DNA of 40,309 nt, from the NCBI GenBank assembly GCA_028711415.1, contig JAQTSG010000005.1:1-40309 (forward strand), given 5' to 3'. The DNA comes from Patescibacteria group bacterium (lineage in GTDB: Bacteria; Patescibacteriota; Patescibacteriia; Patescibacteriales; JAQTRU01). The notes below the pieces were generated by a model, which searched no databases, was not told the origin of the DNA, and saw only the letters and a program-made list of their open reading frames with translations. The translations under genes were made by a program, and so were the position numbers. Below, piece after piece: positions 3,795 to 39,262 of the stretch (the stretch's first letter is position 1; each line of letters opens with the position of its first letter).

Positions 3795-3872
3795 ACCTCA
3801 CCCCCTAGCCCCTCTCCTAATTAGGAGAGGGGAAGCGAATCCCGCTCGCTGGCGGGATGAGCGGGGTGAGGT
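3795..3872. repeat. Palindromic repeat, intergenic copy
   Basis: The element begins CCTCACCCCC, contains a 24-base perfect palindrome at 3809-3832 (CCCCTCTCCT, central AATT, then its complement), then a second hairpin CCCGC/GCGGG, and ends GGGGTGAGG, which complements the beginning. A second copy with a different central tetranucleotide lies in frame inside the glycosyltransferase gene at 4684-4738. Confidence 0.85.
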
Positions 3873-4319: not shown

Positions 4320-5289
4320 TTTTTTCTTTTATTAGCTTTAACTTCCCATACTGTCCCAATAAATACTGCTCAAAAAGCAAAGCGAAAATAAACATCGCTA
4401 ATATTCGCAGAATAATCACGATTTTGCTAAAGAAACCCTGTAAACGCCAATATTTTAGGAAAATTATGTGTTGATTTAAAAAAGACCACTTTTTTACCTG
4501 CTCACTCTTGGCTCCCCTGCCCCTAAAAAAGGCCAAAAAACCCTTCTTAGCGCGGGCAACGGTCCGATCGTGGTAAATTATAGCTTCCGGGGCTAATTTG
4601 GCCTTAAAACCGGCTAAATAGAGCCGATAGGCCAAATCGCAGTCTTCTTTATACATAAACATTAATTCATCAAAATACTGGCCACTTCTCCCCTTTAATT
4701 CCCCTCTCCTGGCCAGGAGAGGGGTTAGGGGTGAGGTTAAGGCGCTAATCCGATAAATTCCGGCCGCGCCATCCGGACCGATAATATTTGCGCCATCACA
4801 TTGCCCTTTATCAATCTGCCCCTGGCCAAAATCAAAAAATCTTAAACCGGTTTTTAATCCGATGCCGCAGGTATCAATAATATTAGTTTTTTTATTCTCT
4901 AAAAAATCCCATTTTAAAATCTTAGGGCTGGCGCTACCTAAACTTTTATCTTTATCCATAACTTCAATTAATTTCTTCACCGCTTCCGGCTCCAGAATCG
5001 TGTCCGGGTTAATAACCAAAAAATATTCGGTATCTAATTTTTGAGCTTCATCTATCATTCTGTTAAAAGCCGCGGCAAAGCCGATATTTTCTCCCGACTT
5101 CATAATCTTAATCTCTGGAAAGTTAGTAGATATAAATTCCACGTTACTCCTGTTATCCTCGCTATTGTCCCAGCAAAAAATTTTGTAATCTCTCTCCCCT
5201 GCCAAAGCTTTAAATAAAGACGGCAAAAAATACGGCAAATACTTTGCCGTATGCTCCCTATAAGTTATAAAACCGATGGCAAGCTTCAT
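4306..5289 (-). CDS. Family 2 glycosyltransferase with in-frame repeat insert
   Basis: GT2 enzymes add a sugar from a nucleotide donor during polysaccharide or glycolipid assembly; this one resembles rhamnosyltransferase-type members. The GT-A fold is visible: FITYRE at the start, CWDNSEDN (about 40), GENIGFAAAFNRMI (about 67-80), the metal-binding NPDT (about 95), and FMYKEDCDLAYRL (about 208-220) with the catalytic ED. A hydrophobic C-terminal segment (about 289-310) suggests membrane association. Around residues 184-201 the expected chain is interrupted by TSPLTPLLARRGELKGRS, which is the translation of the palindromic repeat at 4684-4738; without it the sequence joins the normal family pattern. 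The insert keeps frame and has no stop, so the gene is probably still functional. Donor and acceptor are unknown. Confidence 0.88.
   Translation of the reverse strand: MKLAIGFITYREHTAKYLPYFLPSLFKALAGERDYKIFCWDNSEDNRSNVEFISTNFPEIKIMKSGENIGFAAAFNRMIDEAQKLDTEYFLVINPDTILEPEAVKKLIEVMDKDKSLGSASPKILKWDFLENKKTNIIDTCGIGLKTGLRFFDFGQGQIDKGQCDGANIIGPDGAAGIYRISALTSPLTPLLARRGELKGRSGQYFDELMFMYKEDCDLAYRLYLAGFKAKLAPEAIIYHDRTVARAKKGFLAFFRGRGAKSEQVKKWSFLNQHIIFLKYWRLQGFFSKIVIILRILAMFIFALLFEQYLLGQYGKLKLIKEKIDKF
4684..4738 (-). repeat. Palindromic repeat inserted in frame in a coding sequence
   Basis: A 24-base perfect palindrome at 4701-4724 has the same arms as the intergenic copy at 3809-3832 but central GGCC instead of AATT. 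The flank read on the minus strand (CCTCACCCC then TAACCCC) also matches the other copy. Its length is a multiple of three and it adds about 18 residues to the glycosyltransferase. Confidence 0.85.
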
Positions 5290-5322
5290 ATTCTATTTTA
5301 CCTGTTAAACTTTGCCCCTAAT

Positions 5323-5403
5323 ACTTTGATACTCCAAAGTATAGGAGTGTTCTACTAACCGCTATTTTAAACTGCCACTTTGATACTCCAAAGTATCAAA
5401 GTG
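5323..5403. promoter_or_regulatory. Two copies of a 20-base palindromic box, candidate regulator sites
   Basis: ACTTTGATACTCCAAAGTAT occurs at 5323-5342 and 5378-5397. The second copy is part of a longer inverted repeat with 12-base perfect arms (5376-5387 and 5392-5403) around CCAA. A third copy lies just upstream of the regulator gene that separates them. They lie downstream of the regulator and upstream of the glycosyltransferase start at 5289. Confidence 0.55.
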
Positions 5404-5418
5404 AGTATTAAAAAAGAT

Positions 5419-5745: not shown

Positions 5746-5779
5746 TTCTACTTTGATACTCCAAAGTATCAAAGTAGAA
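5746..5779. promoter_or_regulatory. Large palindrome upstream of the YerC-like gene, candidate operator
   Basis: Perfect 15-base arms (5746-5760 TTCTACTTTGATACT and 5765-5779) flank CCAA. It contains the same 20-base core found at 5323-5342 and 5378-5397. It lies 13 bases upstream of the preferred start codon, where a repressor site would be expected. It could alternatively be one more copy of a mobile palindrome. Confidence 0.55.
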
Positions 5780-8218: not shown

Positions 8219-8318
8219 ATTTAAAATAATATAAAAATAAAATAATGAAATAATATAAAAACCTTATGTATTTCTGCTTTTACCTTAGCATAATTGATTG
8301 ATAAAATAAAGACCGCTC

Positions 8319-8357
8319 TGCCATTGCGAGTTCTAACGCTTCTTCCTCGCAATGGCA
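8319..8357. repeat. Inverted repeat upstream of the alpha/beta hydrolase
   Basis: Perfect 12-base arms TGCCATTGCGAG (8319-8330) and its complement (8346-8357) flank a 15-base loop. The CATTGCGAG word resembles dispersed palindromes seen in many unrelated bacteria. It lies between the divergent rmlD-like and hydrolase genes and just before an extended -10 element. Confidence 0.75.
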
Positions 8358-23496: not shown

Positions 23497-23529
23497 ATAA
23501 AAAAAGTCAAGGTATCTCTACCTTGACTT
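23497..23529 (-). terminator. Terminator overlapping the stop codon of the short GHL15-like gene
   Basis: Perfect 11-base arms AAGTCAAGGTA (23504-23514) and complement (23519-23529) flank TCTC. On the minus strand a T-run follows. The TAG stop (23520-23518) lies within the stem and loop, so the terminator is partly coding. Confidence 0.88.
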
Positions 23530-24609
23530 GTATATAATTTCTCCTTTCCTTTCTCCCGGCCAAACCTTGACAATGGCCTTGGAAAACTCCCTTTGCCAGG
23601 AACCGTCAAGCATTTCCCGGGCCGGACCAAGCGCCTTCCCGATTTCCTGATACTCGGGGAATCTCCTGATCAGGCCCTGGCCATAAGCGTAATAACCGTC
23701 GAAAAGCAGGGCGCTTGATAGGATAAATAACCTGTGCTCGGGATTGTTGGGGACCTGCCTGGCCTGGATAATGGAAAAGGGGCCGGTTTGAAAATAATTC
23801 GTCATTGACTTATACCAACCACCGGCCTTATCATCTCCCAAATAATCATTCGGGAACTCTTCAAACATCTTACCGTCAAGGATATTAAGGAACTCTAACG
23901 TTCCTTTATTCCCAACCATAAGAAAATTCGGGCCTTTTGCTTCTCGGATAACCCGGAGAAATTCCTGGATCCCCAAGGACCAGGAAAAATCAAGGATGGA
24001 AGTGTCGTCATTTTCTCCATTATTACCCGAGTCAATCCCTTTGTTTCTCCCGTAAGTCCCGATCCAGGAAACATCCCCGCCGGAATTATCCATGAAGTAG
24101 CCATCCCAGACGGAATTGAATAAGACTTTTTCCAAAAGAAACCGGGCAATCCACCGGTTATAGCGCGCTCCATTTACCTCGGGGCAGACGGCGCTTAGGT
24201 TAAGCATCCGCATACCTGGCCAAAAAATTACGGGCTCGCCATCTGGCTGGAGAAGCCACCATTTCCCGGCTGCTTCCACCTTTTCCAGAACTTCTTTTTG
24301 CAAAGTCCTGTTTGCCACCATTGGATAAAATAATTCCATTGGGTTGGAATAGGCCAGAAGCTTTACTTCCGGATTCCTTTTTTTAATCGCCCGAAGGTTA
24401 TCCGGATTGTTGACCAGATTTTCCATATCCGCTACTACCAGGTGAAAATTGGCCAAAGAGTCGGCTTCGTCTTTGGTCATTGTCGGCGAAGTCCAATAAG
24501 CGGCTAGTTTGGGATTGCCGCCTAACTTTGCCTTTCTTGCTATAATAGAACCGCAGCCACCGGCAATTATCGCAATCAGGAGCAAGAGACACATCCTTTT
24601 TATCTTCAT
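23518..24609 (-). CDS. GHL15-like putative glycoside hydrolase lipoprotein
   Basis: A 363-residue lipoprotein: hydrophobic signal with lipobox IIAGGC (Cys19). It is a paralogue of the 597-residue protein at 17774-19567, aligning through NPKLAAYW, HLVVADMENLVNNPDNLRAIKKRNPEV-type segments (the long paralogue has LLVLDMEVQENSRDNLKKI), and VWDGYFMDN, with the same two candidate Asp residues, but it lacks the C-terminal FG-GAP repeats. It is preceded by a good promoter and a strong AAAGGGGACTG ribosome binding site, and ended by a terminator, so it is a single-gene unit. It is probably anchored on the outer face of the membrane and could act on a surface glycan. Activity is unproven. Confidence 0.8.
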   Translation of the reverse strand: MKIKRMCLLLLIAIIAGGCGSIIARKAKLGGNPKLAAYWTSPTMTKDEADSLANFHLVVADMENLVNNPDNLRAIKKRNPEVKLLAYSNPMELFYPMVANRTLQKEVLEKVEAAGKWWLLQPDGEPVIFWPGMRMLNLSAVCPEVNGARYNRWIARFLLEKVLFNSVWDGYFMDNSGGDVSWIGTYGRNKGIDSGNNGENDDTSILDFSWSLGIQEFLRVIREAKGPNFLMVGNKGTLEFLNILDGKMFEEFPNDYLGDDKAGGWYKSMTNYFQTGPFSIIQARQVPNNPEHRLFILSSALLFDGYYAYGQGLIRRFPEYQEIGKALGPAREMLDGSWQREFSKAIVKVWPGERKGEIIYKSR

Positions 24610-24676
24610 CGCAGTCCCCTTTCAGTTGGGATATAATTTTAAAAAAATTTTCAAAGGAACAAAAAATTGATTTTTT

Positions 24677-24705
24677 ATATTAACATAACGGCAAAACTAA
24701 GTCAA
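24677..24705 (-). promoter_or_regulatory. Promoter of the GHL15-like lipoprotein gene
   Basis: TTGACT (24705-24700), a 17-base spacer and TAATAT (24682-24677) on the minus strand, 67 bases upstream of the start codon. Confidence 0.65.
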
Positions 24706-24724
24706 TTGCGTGTAAATATTTTAT

Positions 24725-24759
24725 AAAAAAAGGCGTCAGATGCAAGCATCTAACGCCTT
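24725..24759 (-). terminator. Terminator after the GGYNF-domain protein gene
   Basis: AAGGCGTCAGATGC (24730-24743) pairs with GCATCTAACGCCTT (24746-24759) with one mismatch, followed on the minus strand by a run of T. It closes the two-gene unit of the LysM protein and the small exported protein. Confidence 0.88.
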
Positions 24760-24781
24760 GAATTCAATTGTCCCGAACCGG

Positions 24782-25219
24782 TTATTTTTCCGGAACCGGA
24801 ATCGGCTTGAGGCGGAAATTGTAGCCGCCTCGATCATTGTCGACGATATCCTCTTCCCTTACCGCCTTAAGGAGAGAGGAATCAAGAGTGAGCAAGGCAT
24901 GAGGAATATACCTATTCCCCCCGATAGCGAAACAAAAAGAGAATTCTTTCTCCAGCGGAAGCATCACCCCCGCCTTGAAGAAATAATACTTTTTGTCCGC
25001 GGAGAGAGACATCTCCTCATCCCTCCATTCCGTCAAATCCGCCCTGAATTTGGGCTTTTCTCCCTCCACCGCGTCCACGAGCTTCTTGGCGACAAAAAAA
25101 GTCCCGTCCTCATACACGCCATAGAGGATGCTATCGGGCGGAGAGACGAATTCCTGCGCCTGGACTACGAAGCCAAGGGCGAAGAGGAAAAAGACGGCGA
25201 AGCAAAAGATTCTTTTCAT
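24782..25219 (-). CDS. Small exported protein with a single copy of a shared (G)GYNF domain
   Basis: I do not recognise this 145-residue protein. It has a signal peptide (1-20, ending VVQA) and one domain of about 110 residues. Motifs along it: DSILYGVYEDGTFFVAKKLV near the start, a W around residue 65, KKYYFFKAGVMLPLEKEFSF (about 76-95), YIPHALL, and EDIVDNDRGGYNFRLKPI near the end. The same pattern occurs twice in the protein at 31830-32900, so this is a repeated domain family within the locus. A strong AAAGGAACAGGG site precedes the ATG. Only 14 bases separate it from the upstream LysM gene, so they are co-transcribed. It is probably secreted or cell-surface associated; function unknown. 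Confidence 0.72.
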   Translation of the reverse strand: MKRIFCFAVFFLFALGFVVQAQEFVSPPDSILYGVYEDGTFFVAKKLVDAVEGEKPKFRADLTEWRDEEMSLSADKKYYFFKAGVMLPLEKEFSFCFAIGGNRYIPHALLTLDSSLLKAVREEDIVDNDRGGYNFRLKPIPVPEK

Positions 25220-25233
25220 ATCCCTGTTCCTTT

Positions 25234-26664
25234 CTATCTGAAAAACTTTTTTTGTGGTTCAAAATCCAGAGTGACACCAATAGAATTGCCATTAGCGTCT
25301 CGGAACTTTGAATTTCTGGTATTCTTAAATTCAACTCCAAATTTAAAAATATCTTCTTTGCTGCCTATACAAAATCCAACAATGCTAGTAATGCCATAAT
25401 CTTCGTAAGCATAGCTGGATTTTGCCACGATGCCGCTCTTAAAACCATCAAGGTCCCAGAGATAATATCTGGACCCGAAATTGACGCTCCCTTTATTCCC
25501 GGCCGGATCATTCCTTCTTGGAATCCGGCTATTGGCCCACCAGCTCTTTTTGCTGTGGCCAACATCAAAAATGAAATCAAGCCAAGTCTCAAATCTCCTT
25601 TCCTTGAAAATTTCAGCGCCATTACCATAAGAGTCAGCTGTAAGGCCGAAGTAAAGGATGGAATCATCCTGCTCGGCTTTATATCCTTTTCCGTCCCGGC
25701 CCTGGTCATGTTGCCGGCCAAGCTGTAAGGACGATGTAAAACGGTAATTTTTCATGGTCATGTCCAAAACCGGACCGACTGTAGCCCGATATCCATCGTA
25801 ACTAAAACCGCTTCCGGTTTTTCCTTGCCATCCGTTGGCGATACCGCCGATACCGAAATGGATATTGGTTAAAAAAGCGCCCTTGGTGGAAAAATAAAAG
25901 TTGCTTTTGCCGCCGTAATAATTACTTCCGCCCGCTCCTTGCAGAGGGAAATAATGTCCGGCCCAGAGATAAGTCTCATGGCGGCGAACAAAAACAGATT
26001 CATCCTTTTTCTCCGGGGGAACTAATGACGGAGGCGAAGCAGGCGGTTTTTTTGTTTCCAGTTTTGGTTCTTTTGGTTTATCCGGTTTCTTAAAAACCGG
26101 CTTATCTGGAATTTTTTCCTTCCACCAAGCCCAGTTATTGCAGATTGTCGGGGCAATCAGATAATAAACAGAATCGCCTACCTGACAAGAATACCTTTTT
26201 GCCTCATAGTAGACGGTGGAATCCGGCCAGGCCGCTACCACGTTATTGACCAGACGGTAATTGTTAAAAACCATCTGGCAAAAGCGTTCGCCTTTGGCCA
26301 GATAGTAATCTTCGCTATCCCCTCTTTCTACCCGCGCGATTAAAAACGCTTTCACGCTGCCAGGCAGAGAAAACATCTTGATCGCTTTGCGGAAATCTCT
26401 TTTACCAAAAGGATCGCCCCCGGGGTTTTTCCAAAGGAAAACTCCGGCTTCCGGAACTTCCGGAATCCTTAATTCCTGCCCGGTCCTTAATAAGGTCGGG
26501 TCGGAAATTTCCGGGTTGGCCGCCAGAATCTGCTGCCAGGTCAAACCATACTTCTTGGCGATCTGCGCCAAGGTTTCATTGGCTTTAACCATATAGGTTT
26601 CTTCGGCCTGCGCCAAAGCCGATACAGCCATAGCCACCAGTATTATCAACACAAACTTTTTCAT
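25234..26664 (-). CDS. Exported LysM-domain protein with a beta-rich C-terminal region
   Basis: A 476-residue protein with a signal peptide (1-20) and one LysM domain (about 24-68: TYMVKANETLAQIAKKYGLT to GQELRIP), which binds peptidoglycan-type glycans. A middle domain of unknown type follows (about 75-185), then a Pro/Lys-rich linker (about 186-220). The C-terminal half (about 225-476) is rich in aromatic and Gly residues with alternating polar/hydrophobic strands such as FYFSTKGAFLTNIHFGIGGI and NSIGVTLDFEPQKKFF. It looks like a beta-barrel or large beta-sheet domain, which is unexpected for a monoderm. It shares a transcript with the small protein downstream. Exact role unknown; attachment to the cell wall is likely. 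Confidence 0.75.
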   Translation of the reverse strand: MKKFVLIILVAMAVSALAQAEETYMVKANETLAQIAKKYGLTWQQILAANPEISDPTLLRTGQELRIPEVPEAGVFLWKNPGGDPFGKRDFRKAIKMFSLPGSVKAFLIARVERGDSEDYYLAKGERFCQMVFNNYRLVNNVVAAWPDSTVYYEAKRYSCQVGDSVYYLIAPTICNNWAWWKEKIPDKPVFKKPDKPKEPKLETKKPPASPPSLVPPEKKDESVFVRRHETYLWAGHYFPLQGAGGSNYYGGKSNFYFSTKGAFLTNIHFGIGGIANGWQGKTGSGFSYDGYRATVGPVLDMTMKNYRFTSSLQLGRQHDQGRDGKGYKAEQDDSILYFGLTADSYGNGAEIFKERRFETWLDFIFDVGHSKKSWWANSRIPRRNDPAGNKGSVNFGSRYYLWDLDGFKSGIVAKSSYAYEDYGITSIVGFCIGSKEDIFKFGVEFKNTRNSKFRDANGNSIGVTLDFEPQKKFFR

Positions 26665-26778
26665 GCTCGTCGTCCTTCTTATAGATTGTGAAAGAACGGA
26701 AAATCAGATTATTAAATTTAGAAAAAACTCCTTATTTCTCCCAAATTCAATCATCCAAGTTGACCCCATATTTCTAAC

Positions 26779-26816
26779 CCCGTTAGAAATAATCTTCTAA
26801 GCGAGGCTAACAGGGT
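26779..26816. repeat. Imperfect inverted repeat upstream of the LysM gene
   Basis: AACCCCGTTAG at 26777-26787 is answered by CTAACAGGGTT at 26807-26817 with one mismatch. It lies between the predicted LysM-gene promoter and its start codon, so it would be in the mRNA leader. Confidence 0.5.
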
Positions 26817-26825
26817 TGATATCTT

Positions 26826-26854
26826 AAGTTAACAAATTTCCCAATTTTTGTCAA
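26826..26854 (-). promoter_or_regulatory. Possible promoter of the LysM gene
   Basis: TTGACA (26854-26849), a 17-base spacer and TAACTT (26831-26826). The -35 is perfect and the -10 is poor. Confidence 0.4.
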
Positions 26855-26875
26855 TAGCGTGTTTCTTGCAACAAA

Positions 26876-26907
26876 GGGGTTCGACACCCTATAGGGTGTC
26901 GAACCCC
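26876..26907. repeat. 32-base perfect palindrome
   Basis: GGGGTTCGACACCCTA (26876-26891) is followed directly by its complete reverse complement (26892-26907), giving a palindrome without a loop. It lies between the lipoprotein terminator and the LysM promoter. Confidence 0.85.
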
Positions 26908-26928
26908 CAATACTTTTTATATTATTTC

Positions 26929-27043
26929 CTGCCTGCTCGCCTCTCCCGCTTAGCGGGATTTGGCCAGTCTCGCTCGCCTCGCTTTCGCTCCGACGAAGCG
27001 GGCCAGCTCGTCTATGCGGGCGAAGCGAGCCGGTAGGCAGGTA
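26929..27043. repeat. G+C-rich long imperfect inverted repeat
   Basis: CCTGCCTGCTCGCC at the left end and GGCGAAGCGAGCCGGTAGGC plus AGG at the right end pair imperfectly; nested CCCGC/GCGGG and GAAGCG words lie inside. The composition and words (GAAGCGAGC, GGTAGGCAGG) resemble dispersed palindromes I associate with CPR genomes, but this cannot be checked here. Together with its neighbours this fills the 26665-27126 gap; no gene is seen there. Confidence 0.65.
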
Positions 27044-27054
27044 GAATTTGCGGC

Positions 27055-27103
27055 AAAAAAAAGAAGACGGGCGCTGTGGATTAAACACACAACACACGTC
27101 TTC
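27055..27103 (-). terminator. Terminator of the lipoprotein gene at 27127-27651
   Basis: GAAGACG (27103-27097 on the minus strand) pairs with CGTCTTC (27069-27063) around a 27-base loop and is followed by a run of eight T. Confidence 0.65.
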
Positions 27104-27126
27104 CTGTAATAATCTATATAAATGTG

Positions 27127-27651
27127 CTACTTCTGCGGAACGGGATGATGTTCCCCCGTTCTGATGTTGAAAACGAACTCATAACCCCACTCCCCAGCTT
27201 CGTCCTGCCGGGCGTGCGGGTCGTCGGAAGATATAGTCAATCTTGTTCCACCTTCCGTTTCGGTCCAGACCCGGACCGTGTACCACTCCCCTTCATCAAC
27301 GAAGAACGAGGGAACCAGTACATACCCCCAAACCCGGGGATAATGATTATTCCCGTCAACACGGTTATCGGACACCGAGAAAAAACTCCAGGCGCTATCC
27401 GCGTTGACGAAAATCTGAAACTCAACAAACATCTGGAGCGACGAGTCTTTCATCGCCGGTTCCAGAATCGGTAATGAAACACCTATTCCCTGTCCCTGGA
27501 CAATCGCTTCTACCCGGGAAGGTCCTCTCACATCCTCCCCGGAAACCGTTTTCGTCGCTTGAACCGGCGGCTGAACCGACGGCTTGGGTCCGCAGCTGGC
27601 GAAAACCAGAGCAAGGACACAAGCGAAAATTGCTGACAAGAAAACTTTCAT
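27127..27651 (-). CDS. Hypothetical lipoprotein
   Basis: I do not recognise this family. The 174-residue product has a lipoprotein signal (1-19) with lipobox VFASC (Cys20), a short Pro-rich linker, and a beta-rich domain of about 130 residues containing MFVEFQIFVNADSAWSFF, YVLVPSFFVDEGEWYTVRVW and EWGYEFVFNIRTGEHHPVP. A Met five codons upstream (27666) is possible, but GGAGGAAAAGGCA is a good ribosome binding site for the ATG at 27651, so that is chosen. It is preceded by a tandem array of small hairpins and closed by its own terminator. Codon use looks richer in G+C than the backbone. Confidence 0.72.
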   Translation of the reverse strand: MKVFLSAIFACVLALVFASCGPKPSVQPPVQATKTVSGEDVRGPSRVEAIVQGQGIGVSLPILEPAMKDSSLQMFVEFQIFVNADSAWSFFSVSDNRVDGNNHYPRVWGYVLVPSFFVDEGEWYTVRVWTETEGGTRLTISSDDPHARQDEAGEWGYEFVFNIRTGEHHPVPQK

Positions 27652-27797
27652 TGCCTTTTCCTCCATGAACTGAGGGTGAAGGGTGATATGATCTGATTAC
27701 TTTTTATCTATATCAATTAAATTTGCTGCAGAAAAAACAGTTTTGCTTCCCCTATAAGATAATTTACTTCTTCTTAGCTTGCCCTTCTCTCCATCTC

Positions 27798-27946
27798 AGC
27801 GCCTATCGGCGGCTTAAGCTAACCTATCGGTCAAGCTTAAACGAATCTCCCTATCGGAAGATCTTTTGTCAGCTACCCTATCGGGAAAGCTGCTAAGACA
27901 AAAAGTGGCCTCAAGCTATGAAGCAAGTTATCCTAATGGATGGTAA
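27798..27946 (-). promoter_or_regulatory. Tandem array of hairpins capped by GATA loops
   Basis: Four adjacent hairpins, at 27798-27814, 27814-27840, 27845-27862 and 27864-27903, each have the apex CC-TATC-GG on the plus strand (CC-GATA-GG on the transcribed minus strand). The lower stems differ but stay paired: AGC/GCT, TTAAGCT/AGCTTAA, ATCT/AGAT, TTTTGTC+AGCT/AGCT+GACAAAA. A weaker fifth (27928-27946) has apex CC-TAAT-GG. They lie in the spacer between the DUF5018-like gene and the lipoprotein gene. No gene is seen in 27667-27978. Confidence 0.6.
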
Positions 27947-27978
27947 GAAATTTTTTCTTTTTTTCAGGTTGCTCCCTT

Positions 27979-29727
27979 TTACTCCGATGCTGAAAAAACC
28001 GGCACCGGGGGCAGATTATTGAAGAGAACCGGAACGGAAACTGAACCGTCGTTGGTTTTCTTAACACCTGTCTGAGTAGAATCGGGTTTAGGCGCGGGTG
28101 TCGGAACAGTTGGGGAAACCGGTTCCGCGTCTTTGACCAGGGCCTTCACCTTGGCGACCTGGGAAAGGGGGTTAAAAACATATTCGTATTTCTGAATGTG
28201 TTTTTCCCTCTCTTTATCCGCTCCGGCGAACTTTGCTTCCTTAAAAGAAGCGGCTGCCGAATTAGATTCCGAAGGATTCTTTTTTGTATAATCCTCCAGA
28301 TTGGTGTATTCGGTAATATCGCCGTCCCCCTCCAGCACGTACATCGTGCCGGCTTTGCCGACCCTTACCTCCTCGCCGGTTTTGAAATTTACGTAACCGG
28401 TTTTAATGGCCCTCCGATGCGCTTCTGCCCCGATCCATTTCTTGAGAGAAGTGGAATCGGACAAGGTGCCGGTATAACCCCAGAAAACAGGGTTAAGCGC
28501 AATCTGCCTCATCAGGGGGTTTTCCACGCCGTCGCCATTACAGATGACGGCTCTTTTCGCATACTCGTCGTCCACGGGCAGAAGATGGAAAACCGCAATC
28601 GTCCATTTCTGGACAACTGTGGTATCTTGGGCCACGAGCGTGAACTTCTTGGCGCCATCCGAAAAGTCAAGCGTGTCGCCGAGGTCGGGAACCATTTTCC
28701 CGAAGTCCCCTTTCCAATCCGTAACTATCACGGAATTCAAAGGAACGTCCGGCGCTACTGCTAGCCGGACCGTATGGGCAACCGAATCAATTTCGGCTTC
28801 CTGGCCGTTCAAAACGAATTTGGTAAGATTAATCGTCTTGTCCGGCTTAGCAACTACCACGGTTATCTTCCACTCTTTGACGGTTTTGCCGTCTTCGGAA
28901 GTGACCGTGCAAATCGCCGTACCCGGAAAATCTCCCTTGAGCGTATAGGTTGCACCCAGGGACAACTCCATCTTGAAGAAATCTTCCTTTATCTGGCCGG
29001 GTTTGTAAACGTCATATATAGCCGCGAGGTGAACCTCGCGCTTCTCGGCGTTTACCTCGTTTTTCCCTGACGTATCTGCTATTTCCGAGAGCCAGCATTT
29101 CACGATATCGGCCCCGGTGTTCGCGGCAGCTTTGGTAACCGTGACGGTCCAGTCCTTGGTAGTTACCCCGTCCTGGGCCGTGACCGTGTAAGTCGCCGAC
29201 CCGCTAGAGAAGTCAACAACCGTTCCGGACGCCGGATTGATGGTCGCGCCCTCGGATATTACGAGGGCCGGAGCCATCTTAGTCAGGTCAGTGCTGTACA
29301 TAACCTCAACCGTAATTTTTCCGGCCGGGTCAATGTTCACCTTGGTCTGGCCACCGACCTGGAAATCCGTGATCTCGGCTTCCGTGTTCGGCGCCAGTCT
29401 GACGGTGACTGCCAGCTTATTGGCGATCTTCCCGTTCTCCGACGTAACCACGTAGGACTCGAACCCGTCGGATAAATCGACCGGGGTACCGGATGCCGGA
29501 GAAACAGTTGCTTTCGGCGAAACCACGATGTTCACAACCGCCTTGGTCAAATCCGTGCCGTAAGGCACTTCTACTTCGACCGAGCCGTTTTTGACGGTGG
29601 TCAAGTCCGCCTTGACGCCCGCGACTTCGAGCGCGGTGATTTCCGCCAGCTTGCTTTTGCAACCAGCAAAGCTGACGATAGCGAGAACAAACGCTATCAC
29701 GATAACAATGGGGTTCCACTTCTTCAT
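27979..29727 (-). CDS. DUF5018-like multi-repeat lipoprotein
   Basis: A 582-residue lipoprotein (signal 1-22, lipobox VSFAGC, Cys23) with about four tandem beta-sandwich repeats (about 28-110, 115-200, 203-295, 298-385). Repeats show the DUF5018-type pattern: a strand with a short I-x-x-F core, VEVPYGTDLTKA or VMYSTDLTKM, ATVSPASGT or ATINPASGT, VDLSDG or VDFSSG, then YTVTAQDG and W-x-V-T-V. The last 200 residues are unique and end in a Pro/Thr/Ser-rich tail. Such repeats are best known from Bacteroidetes surface lipoproteins. GAAAGGAG precedes the ATG. It follows the OmpA-like gene by 72 bases that hold an 8-pair hairpin. The role is probably structural or glycan-binding at the surface. Confidence 0.8.
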   Translation of the reverse strand: MKKWNPIVIVIAFVLAIVSFAGCKSKLAEITALEVAGVKADLTTVKNGSVEVEVPYGTDLTKAVVNIVVSPKATVSPASGTPVDLSDGFESYVVTSENGKIANKLAVTVRLAPNTEAEITDFQVGGQTKVNIDPAGKITVEVMYSTDLTKMAPALVISEGATINPASGTVVDFSSGSATYTVTAQDGVTTKDWTVTVTKAAANTGADIVKCWLSEIADTSGKNEVNAEKREVHLAAIYDVYKPGQIKEDFFKMELSLGATYTLKGDFPGTAICTVTSEDGKTVKEWKITVVVAKPDKTINLTKFVLNGQEAEIDSVAHTVRLAVAPDVPLNSVIVTDWKGDFGKMVPDLGDTLDFSDGAKKFTLVAQDTTVVQKWTIAVFHLLPVDDEYAKRAVICNGDGVENPLMRQIALNPVFWGYTGTLSDSTSLKKWIGAEAHRRAIKTGYVNFKTGEEVRVGKAGTMYVLEGDGDITEYTNLEDYTKKNPSESNSAAASFKEAKFAGADKEREKHIQKYEYVFNPLSQVAKVKALVKDAEPVSPTVPTPAPKPDSTQTGVKKTNDGSVSVPVLFNNLPPVPVFSASE

Positions 29728-29750
29728 TGCATTACTCCTTTCGGATTTGA

Positions 29751-29778
29751 GAGGGGCTAGTTTTTAGGCCAGCCCCTC
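29751..29778. promoter_or_regulatory. Hairpin between the OmpA-like and DUF5018-like genes
   Basis: GAGGGGCT (29751-29758) pairs with AGCCCCTC (29771-29778) around 12 bases. No T-run follows on the minus strand, so it may be a processing or regulatory hairpin and not a strong terminator. Confidence 0.5.
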
Positions 29779-29799
29779 CTTGAGTTGAATGTTTAACCA

Positions 29800-30669
29800 C
29801 TAAACTATTTTAGTAACCTTTTTCTGATCCAGGAGAAGGGTAACCTGTGATGCAAACTTATCGCCCTCAAGACATCGTTTCAAAGAATTAACGATATCTC
29901 TTTTGTGCGACATTTTGATGTTTTCCTTTTCGTCTCCCGTATTCGTGAAAGGTGAAATAAAAACTTCTTCCGTTTTATTTCCAATGGTTCTCCATTTACG
30001 CAAAACCTTGACCCGGAAATTTCCCTTGCTTGTTGTTTTTATTTCCAACTCCTCTACTTTTACATTCCAAGAGGTTTCCTCGGAAGCGGTCGGTTTTCTC
30101 CTGAGCTTCTTTAAAAGAATAACGGCCACCAAAGAAATGATCAGGAGAGATACTATAACTACCAAAACTCTCCGGAATGAACGTCCTGCAGCTTCCGCTT
30201 CCGCTTTATCTGCCGAATCTACCAAAGTTTTTTTGCTGGCAGACGCAGATAAAGAATCAAGCTTTGATTTAATCTCTGCGAAGTTTTTGTCAGGAGTGAT
30301 CTTTATAAATTTGTACTCCACGACTACCTGGCGGCTATTTTCTCCGTCTCCCTTTGGGACGACGTTGATTTTCGCCCCGGGAAATTCAGAAGCGAGCACG
30401 CCTTCAACCGCTTCAGCCCTATTTTTTGAGAGCTGGTCATTCTGCGCGGAGATACCGCGGTTGTCAGCTGAGCCAATTATGGTTATGACCAAATTGGTTG
30501 AACCCGGCTGCGCGTCTTTTATTTCCGCCACCAGAATCTTGACCTGCACTTCGATTTCGCCTTTGACCGCGAACTCGTCGGTTCCATAACCGGAGATTAA
30601 TCTTTCATCGGCCGCAATGTTGGCAACGATGGCCAACAGGATGAACATAACCAAACTAAACCGTTTCAT
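29800..30669 (-). CDS. OmpA-like domain protein with a central membrane segment
   Basis: This 289-residue protein has a signal peptide (1-20) and then an OmpA/MotB-type domain (about 22-128), with ITIIGSADNRGISAQNDQLSKNRAEAV matching the GHTDN...N..LS..RA.AV pattern used to bind peptidoglycan. A strong transmembrane segment follows at about 168-188 (VLVVIVSLLIISLVAVILL), and then a charged C-terminal domain of about 100 residues. The order places the OmpA-like domain outside and the C-terminal domain in the cytoplasm, unlike an outer-membrane OmpA. GGAGGTATTAC precedes the ATG. Upstream are three small tandem hairpins. It could link the cell wall to the membrane or sense wall state; that is inference. 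Confidence 0.8.
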   Translation of the reverse strand: MKRFSLVMFILLAIVANIAADERLISGYGTDEFAVKGEIEVQVKILVAEIKDAQPGSTNLVITIIGSADNRGISAQNDQLSKNRAEAVEGVLASEFPGAKINVVPKGDGENSRQVVVEYKFIKITPDKNFAEIKSKLDSLSASASKKTLVDSADKAEAEAAGRSFRRVLVVIVSLLIISLVAVILLKKLRRKPTASEETSWNVKVEELEIKTTSKGNFRVKVLRKWRTIGNKTEEVFISPFTNTGDEKENIKMSHKRDIVNSLKRCLEGDKFASQVTLLLDQKKVTKIV

Positions 30670-30681
30670 GTAATACCTCCT

Positions 30682-30746
30682 GCCCTATCGGGCGGTTTCA
30701 TGCCTTATCAGGCATGGGTTAAAAACTCCTTGCCCAGTCAGGCAAG
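30682..30746 (-). promoter_or_regulatory. Three tandem small hairpins in the leader of the OmpA-like gene
   Basis: GCCC-TATC-GGGC (30682-30693), CATGCCT-TATC-AGGCATG (30699-30716) and CTTGCC-CAGTCA-GGCAAG (30729-30746), plus-strand reading. Two have the same TATC (GATA on minus) cap as the array at 27798-27903. The last hairpin ends 13 bases before the start codon and touches the ribosome binding site, so it could affect translation. Confidence 0.6.
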
Positions 30747-30849
30747 TTTTATTCAGTTGTCAAAGATCCGGCCTTTATTATTTCTGCTCCGATTACGGGC
30801 AGCCCCGCCTTAAGCGGAGATATAATTTAGACCTTCAAACCTAGGCCGT

Positions 30850-31677
30850 TTAATTGCCCAAGTTTGACTGCCCAAAATTATTTTCGTCTTCTAAGGTTTC
30901 TAATTTGTCTTCTTCCAGGTTCCGGCCTTCATCTTCGTAAAAATTCGGGCTGAGGAAACGAGCGTATTCCTTTTTTTCTAAAATACTGCCGACGCTTTCC
31001 CAATTATTTTCTTCCTCCCCTCTTTCTGCTGTTCCACTTCCGTTTCCAGCCGAAAATTTATATTCTTCATCCGCGGAAAAAAGATAGATATAAATTAAAG
31101 ACAAAAAGAAACCGAGAATAACCGCGCCGATAAAATTTAAAATAACATTCGGCTTGACCGGCTTCCGCGAAGTTAACGGCTCATCAATGATTTTTACATT
31201 CACGTTATCTCCGTAGCCGTGATAAAGCCGGTGGCTGGCTTGCATGGAAAAAGCGATAGCGCGGGCAATCTGGTCGGCCTGAAGTTTATCCGGATGATAA
31301 ACCGCGACGGAAATTATGCCGGTATCGCTAATAGTTTTAGCCGCCACGGTTTTTTTCCATTCCTTCATCCGTTTCTCCGTGTCTTGGCCGAAATAATCTT
31401 TATTGATTTTAAAACCGGCTTTATCAACTTTTTCAAAAAATGAATTGGAATAAATCACTTTAGCTAAAATCCCGCTTAAGTATTCGTTTGATTTTGAAGC
31501 GACGTAGGGGTCCGTGTTAGCGCCAAAATTATGGATTACCAGCATCTTAAAGCTGGTTTCATATTTAAATGGCTGGGTAAAAGTAAAACCCGCCGCCAAT
31601 AGAACAAAAAGGATGACGATTATCATTATCGCCAACTTCCTTTTGAGAATTAAATTAAGAAAACTATCTAAATTCAT
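30850..31677 (-). CDS. Wzz/YveK-type chain-length regulator of polysaccharide export
   Basis: The family controls polysaccharide chain length with a periplasmic-type domain held between two membrane segments. The 275-residue product has segments at about 14-34 (KLAIMIIVILFVLLAAGFTF) and about 183-203, with the conserved P-x-x-PxxP-like SRKPVKPN just before the second, and a first-segment-proximal FKYETSFKMLV. The cytoplasmic tail (about 205-275) is Glu/Asp/Asn-rich; no kinase (BY-kinase Walker motifs) is fused or adjacent. Composition is AT-rich like the backbone, unlike the exported genes on both sides, and it has its own promoter. It fits the polysaccharide cluster at 16.6-23.4 kb. Confidence 0.85.
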   Translation of the reverse strand: MNLDSFLNLILKRKLAIMIIVILFVLLAAGFTFTQPFKYETSFKMLVIHNFGANTDPYVASKSNEYLSGILAKVIYSNSFFEKVDKAGFKINKDYFGQDTEKRMKEWKKTVAAKTISDTGIISVAVYHPDKLQADQIARAIAFSMQASHRLYHGYGDNVNVKIIDEPLTSRKPVKPNVILNFIGAVILGFFLSLIYIYLFSADEEYKFSAGNGSGTAERGEEENNWESVGSILEKKEYARFLSPNFYEDEGRNLEEDKLETLEDENNFGQSNLGN

Positions 31678-31727
31678 AAAAATTCTTTAAAAATAGGCCT
31701 TTTTTATTAATTAATATTTAACTTAAC

Positions 31728-31756
31728 ATAATAGCATATTTATTAAACTATGTCAA
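31728..31756 (-). promoter_or_regulatory. Promoter of the Wzz-like gene
   Basis: TTGACA (31756-31751), a 17-base spacer and TATTAT (31733-31728) on the minus strand, about 50 bases upstream of the start codon. Confidence 0.75.
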
Positions 31757-31773
31757 GGATAAAATAAAAATAA

Positions 31774-31805
31774 TAAAAAAGCCCGGGGTTTTATTAACCT
31801 CGGGC
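31774..31805 (-). terminator. Terminator of the type IX-like CTD protein gene
   Basis: GCCCGGGGTT (31781-31790) pairs with AACCTCGGGC (31796-31805) with one mismatch, and a T-run follows on the minus strand. Confidence 0.88.
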
Positions 31806-31829
31806 CTGTTTCATCGTTTTGCCGCTCTT

Positions 31830-32900
31830 TTACTTCAAAAGCGACATTTTTATCGTTTGGGAGAAATCTCCAGCTTTTACCGTGCAGAAATACACGCCGC
31901 TGGAGAATTTTTCCCCGTTCCAGGTAAGCGAGTAGCTACCGGCTTCCCGGAAACCATCGGTGATTACCTCCACCCTTTGCCCGGTTACATCTCGGATATC
32001 AACCATTATGTTTTCAGCTTTGGGAAGGGTAAAGTTGATACTGGTCGCCGGATTAAAGGGATTGGGATAATTTTGGAACAACCCAAAAACCTTCGGTCCT
32101 TCACTTTCAACCGCCACCACCTTGCCGCTGTCAACAGCGGTAACGGAGAAATTATATCCCCCTTTGCCATTGTTAATGGTATCGCTTTTATTGACAAGCT
32201 CATCCATAATGATACCGGGGAAAAACTTCCCGTTATCACTTACGCAATAAAAAACAACTTCCTCTTCTTTGGGAAAAACATAACCGCTGTCAGCTTGGCA
32301 GGAGAAAAAGCCGTTTTCCAACTTTCCTTTCTTCAGTTGCCAGGAAGTCGGTTCGCCGGCAAAACTTACGGACGTACCGCCGGCAAAAGAAACCATTTCC
32401 TCCGAGATAAATATCCGGCCGTTCCCGGCTCCGTAGTGAGTGGAGTCAAAGGACGTTGGCTTCAATTTATCAAACACGGGAAGAACGGAAAAATTGTAAC
32501 CAGTATAGTCGCTATTGCTTACCACGTCAGTATTGTTATTAGCGATCATGCCGAAAATATTACCCGGGAGGTACCAGTCGTTGCTGGTAAAGACATAGAA
32601 GATGACCTTCTGGCCTTTAGGGAAGATATATCCCTTTTCGGCCGAGCAGATAAAAAATCCGTCCTTCAGAATTCCCTCTTTCGGTTTCCAGCCAGTGGGG
32701 TCTCCGTTGAAAAACACCTTTGTACCCTCCGGCCCCTCGAAGTACAGACTGTCCGTTCGCACCATCATCAGCGACACGAACATCTCGTTGTCTTTGATGC
32801 CGTAATTCCATGGCTCAAAATAATGTTGTGCCGCGTCGATTACCGAAGAAAAAGTAACTATTACCGAAACAAAACTTAGGAAAGCAATAAGCCGTTTCAT
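31830..32900 (-). CDS. Exported protein with two (G)GYNF domains and a type IX-like C-terminal domain
   Basis: A 356-residue protein with a signal peptide (1-23). It carries two copies of a domain of about 110 residues (about 28-143 and 150-258), each running from a YG..D/N..(M/I)F start through FF.C.A..GY.FPK, a Tyr-rich strand, and ending TGYNFSVLPV or GGYNFSVTAV. The C-terminus (about 270-356) is a FlgD/type IX sorting-type beta domain: LFQNYPNPFNPATSINFTLP, then REAGSYSLTWNGEKFSSGVYF and FSQTIKMSLLK at the end. It has a strong promoter, an AGAGGAGG ribosome binding site and a terminator. The single-domain relative is at 24782-25219. In Bacteroidota such C-termini direct secretion and anchoring; whether that applies here is doubtful. 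Confidence 0.82.
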   Translation of the reverse strand: MKRLIAFLSFVSVIVTFSSVIDAAQHYFEPWNYGIKDNEMFVSLMMVRTDSLYFEGPEGTKVFFNGDPTGWKPKEGILKDGFFICSAEKGYIFPKGQKVIFYVFTSNDWYLPGNIFGMIANNNTDVVSNSDYTGYNFSVLPVFDKLKPTSFDSTHYGAGNGRIFISEEMVSFAGGTSVSFAGEPTSWQLKKGKLENGFFSCQADSGYVFPKEEEVVFYCVSDNGKFFPGIIMDELVNKSDTINNGKGGYNFSVTAVDSGKVVAVESEGPKVFGLFQNYPNPFNPATSINFTLPKAENIMVDIRDVTGQRVEVITDGFREAGSYSLTWNGEKFSSGVYFCTVKAGDFSQTIKMSLLK

Positions 32901-39008: not shown

Positions 39009-39140
39009 TCTTTTATTACGAATTCACAAATATTATCATCACCGTCCCGCCAAGGCGGGATGACGGGACAAATAACACAAATAATCATAAATAAAAAATT
39101 CCAATTTGTGACATTTGTGCTTGATTTGTAATTTGTATTA
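39009..39140. repeat. Word-type inverted repeat upstream of rplJ with internal hairpin
   Basis: ACGAATTCACAAATATTATC on the left pairs loosely with ACAAAT-complement words (AATTTGTGACATTTGTGC, GATTTGTAATTTGTA) on the right. In the middle is a CCCGCC-AA-GGCGGG hairpin (39046-39059). Words are related to the repeat between rsmH and ftsL. It lies in the rplJ mRNA leader. Confidence 0.7.
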
Positions 39141-39143
39141 AAT

Positions 39144-39167
39144 AAAAAAGCTGTGTTTTACCACAGC
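39144..39167 (-). terminator. Attenuator/terminator 2 in the rplJ leader
   Basis: GCTGTG (39150-39155) pairs with CACAGC (39162-39167), followed on the minus strand by six T. It lies between the L10 leader and the coding sequence. Confidence 0.75.
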
Positions 39168-39171
39168 CGAT

Positions 39172-39192
39172 AAAAAAGCCAAAAACGGCTTT
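39172..39192 (-). terminator. Attenuator/terminator 1 in the rplJ leader
   Basis: AAAGCC (39175-39180) and GGCTTT (39187-39192) pair around six bases, followed by a T-run on the minus strand, just after the L10 leader element. Confidence 0.7.
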
Positions 39193-39233
39193 CTTACCTC
39201 GGCAGGTCTTATTCTTCGCCTGCTGTCTGCGGT
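39193..39233 (-). ncRNA. L10 ribosomal protein leader
   Basis: The minus strand reads ACCGCAGACAGCAGGCG, then a short loop, then GACCTGCCGAGGTAAG. The pieces GCAGACAGCAGG and CCTGCCGAGGT are the hallmark of the L10 leader, to which the L10-L12 complex binds to repress its own operon. The pairing CAGG/CCTG and ACC/GGT closes the structure. Confidence 0.88.
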
Positions 39234-39262
39234 AAAATCTTTAATATTTATTGTCTATAACT

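Follow-up and report, generated by a model that had tools for sequence, protein, structure and literature searches.

Four consecutive hairpins that present the same loop on different stems raise the question of what such a loop is for, and of whether the hairpins are a complete structure or part of a larger one. The array was analysed in a stretch of 40,309 nt, here called the window, which is contig C24 of a 1.095-Mb genome (97% complete; G000). A relative of the same genus, the Patescibacteria MAG G001, was used for comparison together with more distant members of the order.

Fold of the hairpin array and its long stem

The motif CCTATCGG (CCGATAGG on the minus strand) was located at positions 27802–27809, 27823–27830, 27850–27857 and 27877–27884. 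The four copies spanned 83 bases, and each capped a hairpin with its own lower stem. The 40-kb window contained six copies of CCTATCGG against 0.94 expected, a number reached in 0 of 100 shuffles. When the minus strand was folded to minimum energy, all four CC-GAUA-GG caps formed hairpins arranged head to tail. The motif copies and this fold confirmed the original prediction of tandem hairpins with a constant CC-GATA-GG cap and variable, still paired lower stems.

The four hairpins, all on the minus strand, were read from the fold as hairpin 1, AGCUUUCC C-GAUA-G GGUAGCU (27871–27891), hairpin 2, GAUCUUCC-GAUA-GGGAGAUU (27844–27863), hairpin 3, GUUUAAGCUUGACC-GAUA-GGUUAGCUUAAGC (27812–27842), and hairpin 4, GCC-GAUA-GGC (27801–27810). 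They scored 21.8, 22.1, 21.1 and 20.6 bits, respectively, with a covariance model of GAUA hairpins. A weaker fifth unit with a TAAT loop, which had also been proposed, did not stand on its own in the full fold; its GGAUAAC segment was engaged in the 5′ arm of the long stem that carries the head.

Together, the four hairpins make up just the head of an RNA of ~230 nt that is closed by a long stem. The whole intercistronic element (27730–27958, minus strand) was an irregular long stem with the four-hairpin head on top, and its outermost pairing was GAAAAAA/UUUUUUC. It was supported by the fold z-score, by a like architecture in G001, G064, G063 and G041, and by covariation between two sequences. 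Compared with shuffled sequence, the minus strand folded with z = −6.2 (27785–27960) and z = −7.1 (27725–27965), whereas the plus strand gave much weaker values of −1.9 and −2.45. The mRNA-sense strand is therefore the folded one. The difference arose because the long stem has a pyrimidine-rich (U-rich) 5′ arm and a purine-rich 3′ arm, between which many of the pairs are G-U.

The head was closed by 13 pairs between UUUUUGUCUUAGC (27892–27904) on the 5′ side and GCUGAGAUGGAGAGA (27786–27800) on the 3′ side, both on the minus strand. Outward from the head-closing pair, the stem continued through AGCUUG/CAAGCU, UUGCUUC/GAAGAAG and AGGAUAA/UUAUCUU, and ended in GAAAAAA/UUUUUUC (27950–27958/27730–27738). 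In the conserved lower stem, the minus-strand 5′ arm UAGGAUAACUUGCUUC (27920–27935) was paired with the purine-rich 3′ arm in the GAAGAAGUAAAUUAUCUUA region (27755–27771). The corresponding flanks of G001 were 77–78% identical, and compensatory changes kept the pairs.

Operon setting and confinement within the genome

The element occupied the gap between two exported-protein genes on the minus strand of a Patescibacteria envelope operon. A DUF5018 lipoprotein gene (27979–29727, minus strand; Pfam DUF5018, 1.7e-11) ended 5′ of the element, and a small lipoprotein gene (27127–27666, minus strand), taken from the open reading frame list and with a 40% ortholog in G001, started 3′ of it. The start codon of the small lipoprotein gene was ATG at 27666 or one at ~27651, the latter better placed after GGAGG. 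When the DUF5018 C-terminus was searched among viral contigs and GTDB genome contigs, only the same-genus genome was found. Upstream in the operon lay the gene of an exported OmpA-like membrane protein (29800–30669, minus strand; Pfam OmpA, 1.2e-8), preceded by a Wzz-like (chain-length) gene (30850–31677).

Three further hairpins, which had escaped the original prediction, were located upstream of the OmpA-like gene on the minus strand. In the fold, leader hairpin 1 was CUUGCCU-GACU-GGGCAAG (30729–30746), and leader hairpin 2 was CAUGCCU-GAUA-AGGCAUG (30699–30716; 23.1 bits). Leader hairpin 3, GCCC-GAUA-GGGC (30679–30696; 22.8 bits), stood directly 5′ of an AGGAGG ribosome site.

The CCGATAGG motif was present 19 times in the own genome on both strands, and hairpins around it were nearly confined to the operon. 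A covariance model built from the six GAUA hairpins of the operon returned the same six on top of the whole genome, at 20.6–23.1 bits, followed by matches of 19.0, 18.7 and 17.3 bits. Since these six built the model, their top rank was expected, and the informative result is that nothing else joined them; the scan gave no genome-wide set of GAUA hairpins. One candidate elsewhere, GGCCGATAGGCC at G000:C21:500, was a hairpin 3′ of an unrelated gene. As DNA, the element was single-copy, with one locus in G000 and one in G001. A single-copy element with GAUA hairpins limited to the operon is not a dispersed repeat.

Several other structured or repeated stretches were observed in and around the operon. 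A structured stretch GGGCAGUCAAAC...GUUUGAAGG...CUGCCCGUAAUCGGAGCAGAA ahead of the OmpA-like leader hairpins, resembling a three-way junction and followed by YUUUGACAAY, was kept in both members of the genus (window 30750–30849, minus strand; L023:4915–5045). This stretch gave no Rfam match at the gathering threshold and is possibly a separate cis-regulatory RNA. The small lipoprotein gene was followed by a terminator (window ~27045–27105, minus strand; L023 ~8309–8352), the stem of which co-varied as GACG/CGUC and GCCG/CGGC. Its large loop, UGUGUUGUGUGUUUWAUCCACA, did not vary between the two congeners, an unusual feature in a plain terminator. A perfect 15-bp palindrome with a TATA centre (GGGGTTCGACACCCTATAGGGTGTCGAACCCC; 26875–26908) lay between the small lipoprotein gene and a LysM gene. 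The G+C content of positions ~23500–32900 was 46–47%, compared with 36–42% in the rest of the window. This exported-protein block of atypical composition included a protein bearing a C-terminal tail of the Por secretion type (31830–32900). Elsewhere in the window, two 24-bp palindromes CCCCTCTCCT-NNNN-AGGAGAGGGG (3809–3832 and 4701–4724) differed in their self-complementary centres (AATT and GGCC), and a palindromic unit ACTTTGATACTTTGGAGTATCAAAGT was repeated in several copies (5321–5404 and 5746–5779).

Relatives and the loop of each genome

The syntenic gap of G001 was found by DNA similarity. In this congener, the head was swapped for three other hairpins with loops UAGA, UUAGAG and UAUU, and the overall fold was alike (z = −7.0). 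In the two-sequence consensus of G000 and G001, 44 pairs remained, of which six had both sides changed. The covariance model of these two sequences gave a match of only 20.4 bits in G064, a genome from another family of the order. The gap of G064, in an operon behind a Wzz gene, formed a long stem with four hairpins (loops AUUU, AUUU, AUUU and UUUU; z = −5.7), and its sense strand also folded better. Matches of the covariance model in G098 and G047 were long chance hairpins lacking the head.

When the neighbouring LysM protein and Wzz were used for searching, about 72 operons of the order were obtained. A long stem like that of the window carried four AUCU hairpins in G063 and four GAUU hairpins in G041. 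The long stem was found again in G028 with three AAUU hairpins and in G032 with two GAAU hairpins, and G073 had three GAGC hairpins in a gap two genes further on. When G063 was compared with G064, 64–65 of the 72–73 gap-free pairs (lost ones aside) were kept, 3–4 of them with both sides changed. At loci next to Wzz, repeated-loop arrays were found in families f1, f9, f13, f17 and f20 of the order, and were not seen in many members of f7 and f8. Among 20 Wzz loci from other orders of the class there were no G-C-closed repeated loops, and one A/T-closed tandem repeat.

Two further loci showed repeats of other kinds. In G086 of family f8, three hairpins with GAAG loops were placed in three successive gaps (L138, 1435–4423, minus strand); these may be GNRA-like stable loops and not the same phenomenon. 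The leader at L127 (G039, 1340–1575) had a two-copy tandem repeat containing GAUGUGCCCCUUUUCGUAGCGGGGCUCCGCCCCUGGCGGAUUACAUA.

Within a genome, all or most of the hairpins shared one tetraloop on unrelated stems, and genomes differed from each other (GAUA, GAUU, AUCU, AUUU, AAUU, GAGC and UAGA). The totals were six GAUA in G000, seven GAUU in G041, five AUUU in G064, four AAUU in G028, five GAGC in G073, two GAAU in G032 and two GGAU in G040, with UAGA/CAGA in G001. The leader hairpins matched the gap loop in G000 (GAUA), G041 (GAUU), G064 (AUUU), G028 (AAUU/AACU), G073 (GAGC) and G001 (UAGA/CAGA). In G063, the gap had four AUCU loops and the leader had two GAAU and one GGAU, so that the leader was near-uniform yet unlike the gap.

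When all tetraloop hairpins of the minimum-energy folds of the operon gaps from 37 genomes were taken, 50 within-genome identical loop pairs were counted against 6.5 expected (s.d. 2.6; maximum of 20 in 5000 permutations). In hairpins read from the folds by eye, which is a possible source of bias, within-array identity reached 36 pairs against 3.6, and the true leader–gap pairing ranked first among the 5040 possible.

The clearest single case of concerted loop change was the comparison of G063 with its congener G064. Their four hairpins were orthologous by position and similar in stem, and gap hairpins 1–3 all differed by U/C at loop position 3 (AUUU/AUCU). In this genus, a leader hairpin also kept its GGGC/GCCC stem in three species with the loops GAUU, GGAU and GAAA.

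The homologous RNAs in other genomes strongly supported the earlier proposal of selection on RNA structure together with a recognised loop; they also narrowed it, as GAUA is not universal and the hairpins are only the head of the larger RNA. An array lacking counterparts in relatives, or copies at random places, would have spoken against the proposal. Instead, arrays were found in relatives in the same operon and on the same strand, and the GAUA hairpins of the own genome were essentially operon-confined.

Proposed function and alternative explanations

On balance, we favour the reading that the element is a cis-acting RNA in the envelope-operon transcript, which presents one loop in several copies to a partner that acts in trans and co-evolves with it. 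Stems that vary and remain paired around a constant loop point to the loop as the part being read, and several hairpin copies point to multivalent binding. Because the loop is uniform within genomes and different between them, the reader would differ too. The position in an exported-protein operon, before a ribosome site, suggests expression control of surface proteins. In the folds, the long U-rich/purine-rich stem holds up a head of three to four short hairpins, and a second, smaller hairpin set lies immediately ahead of the gene that follows the chain-length (Wzz) gene. The tetraloops would most likely be docking sites, several used at once, for the trans-acting partner. The specificity of this partner may shift from genome to genome, loops and partner changing together, and a base-pairing RNA, in which point mutation suffices, would account for such rapid change with less difficulty than a protein. 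The binding would probably regulate transcription through the operon, its translation or the stability of the RNA.

Some observations argue against this reading in part. Repeated loops are absent from the operon in some members of the order, and the differing leader and gap loops of G063 argue against one partner for both arrays everywhere. When partners were searched for, the anti-loop hexamer (the reverse complement of the loop and its closing pair) was not enriched in the operon. A cis partner at the start codon (CAGAUG in G063, AAAUG in G064) was promising, but the other genomes did not fit. The tRNA-Arg(GCG) was the only RNA in the own genome to carry the complete complementary sequence, CCTATCGG; its orthologs had no matching anti-loops, and the match was taken as a coincidence. 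By inspection, self-complementary kissing loops would work only for AAUU and, with wobble pairs, for GAUU.

A purely structural element, such as an mRNA stabiliser, a processing site or a spacer, is an unlikely alternative, in which unread loops would be alike through hairpin duplication or gene conversion. Intercistronic stem-loops that stabilise mRNA are common, and with 86% likeness over 21 nt, hairpins 1 and 3 of the head in the window make some duplication possible. Duplication is at odds with stems that differ within one genome while the loops are identical, and with a loop shared by leader and gap arrays 1.5–3 kb apart. Conversion of a 4–6 base tract that lacks flanking homology is implausible, and the same change in three positionally orthologous loops of G063 and G064, on a conserved stem, also argues against it. 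Somewhat less probable still is processive antitermination or attenuation, like that of the EAR RNA in the Bacillus eps operon or of LoaP with its leader hairpin. The setting within an operon that follows a Wzz chain-length gene is comparable to that of EAR, which is placed between eps genes two and three (PMC7858274); however, the element gave no Rfam match even at E ≤ 5, which argues against EAR by sequence and structure. LoaP reads the UNCG tetraloop of the dfn hairpin in a 5′ leader (PMC12691694), and not the loops found here. Although the 5′ arm by itself can fold into a weak hairpin like that of a terminator (27924–27908, then UUUUU), which the long stem would replace, terminator-like sites were not in excess (7 against 5.5 in shuffles). 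The leaders share YUUUGACAAY 5′ of the hairpins, resembling a boxA or −35 element, but antitermination alone would leave the loop differences between genomes unexplained.

That the loops are read by CsrA/RsmA, an ANTAR antiterminator or another known protein of this kind is very improbable; the loops differ between genomes. The GGAU/GGAC loops of G040 resemble the GGA of CsrA sites; GGA was found in hairpin loops only there and in one G063 hairpin, and a CsrA protein was present in 0 of 12 array-bearing or sister genomes, with positive controls in E. coli, B. subtilis and T. maritima. The tandem hairpins also resemble ANTAR targets, which are two tandem hexaloops with fixed A1 and G4 overlapping a terminator, read by a protein dimer (PMC3369931). 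Here, in contrast, tetraloops that varied by genome were found, with no clear terminator. A dispersed DNA palindrome or mobile repeat is scarcely credible. Unrelated perfect palindromes do occur in the own genome, but the single locus in G000 and in G001 and the six best GAUA hairpins, all in the operon, argue against a palindrome, REP or MITE. So do the constant gene-sense strand, the conserved operon position and the better folding of the sense strand, with G-U pairs, in the window and in G064.

No match to the Rfam 15 covariance models was found at window 27650–28000 up to E = 5. Elsewhere in the window, Rfam identified only tRNAs and an ordinary L10 ribosomal-protein leader (39135–39250) ahead of the L10 gene. 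In the open-licence full texts on structured RNAs of this bacterial group, nothing comparable and almost nothing on RNA-level regulation was found. The nearest parallels in logic are CsrB-like multi-hairpin RNAs and the packaging signals found in small RNA viruses. To our knowledge, neither of these re-sets its loop within a genus. CsrB/RsmY and CsrA-bound leaders also have several hairpins with a shared loop motif, varied stems and multivalent binding in trans; unlike them, the element occurs in the absence of CsrA, has a genome-specific loop, is part of an operon mRNA and has one long closing stem. The packaging signals of MS2 and STNV are many hairpins with one virus-specific loop motif and free stems, bound cooperatively (PMC3662417), whereas a bacterial operon mRNA has no capsid and the likeness is in logic only. 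EAR and the LoaP/dfn hairpin are likewise structured RNAs that lie within an operon for surface polymers or biosynthesis, or in front of it, but repeated genome-specific loops are not described there. TIGR arrays are also tandem hairpins with locus-specific repeats in Patescibacteria-like genomes. Their units have two guide spacers of 8–12 nt between box C/D motifs and an adjacent Nop-domain tas gene (PMC12045711), whereas the units here are tetraloop hairpins with arms that pair with each other, and no Nop domain was found among ten neighbouring proteins scanned.

The element is a real, conserved RNA with an unusual evolutionary signature. It is taken here as a variation on loop-recognised multi-hairpin RNAs, with a fair chance of representing a category of its own. 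Loop-recognised regulatory RNAs normally keep the loop across species; here, the architecture, position and pairing were kept and the loop differed even within a genus. For the favoured reading of a loop presented to a partner in trans, loops uniform within and different between genomes would be the footprint of a matched partner changing along with them. The way to this partner would be to look for a molecule whose sequence tracks GAUA, GAUU, AUCU, AUUU, AAUU and GAGC across genomes. More tentatively, the shared tetraloop may be a self-renewing code, re-set in concert in every lineage to match an RNA or protein of its own that evolves alongside it. If this is true, each lineage would have its own orthogonal RNA switch for surface proteins.
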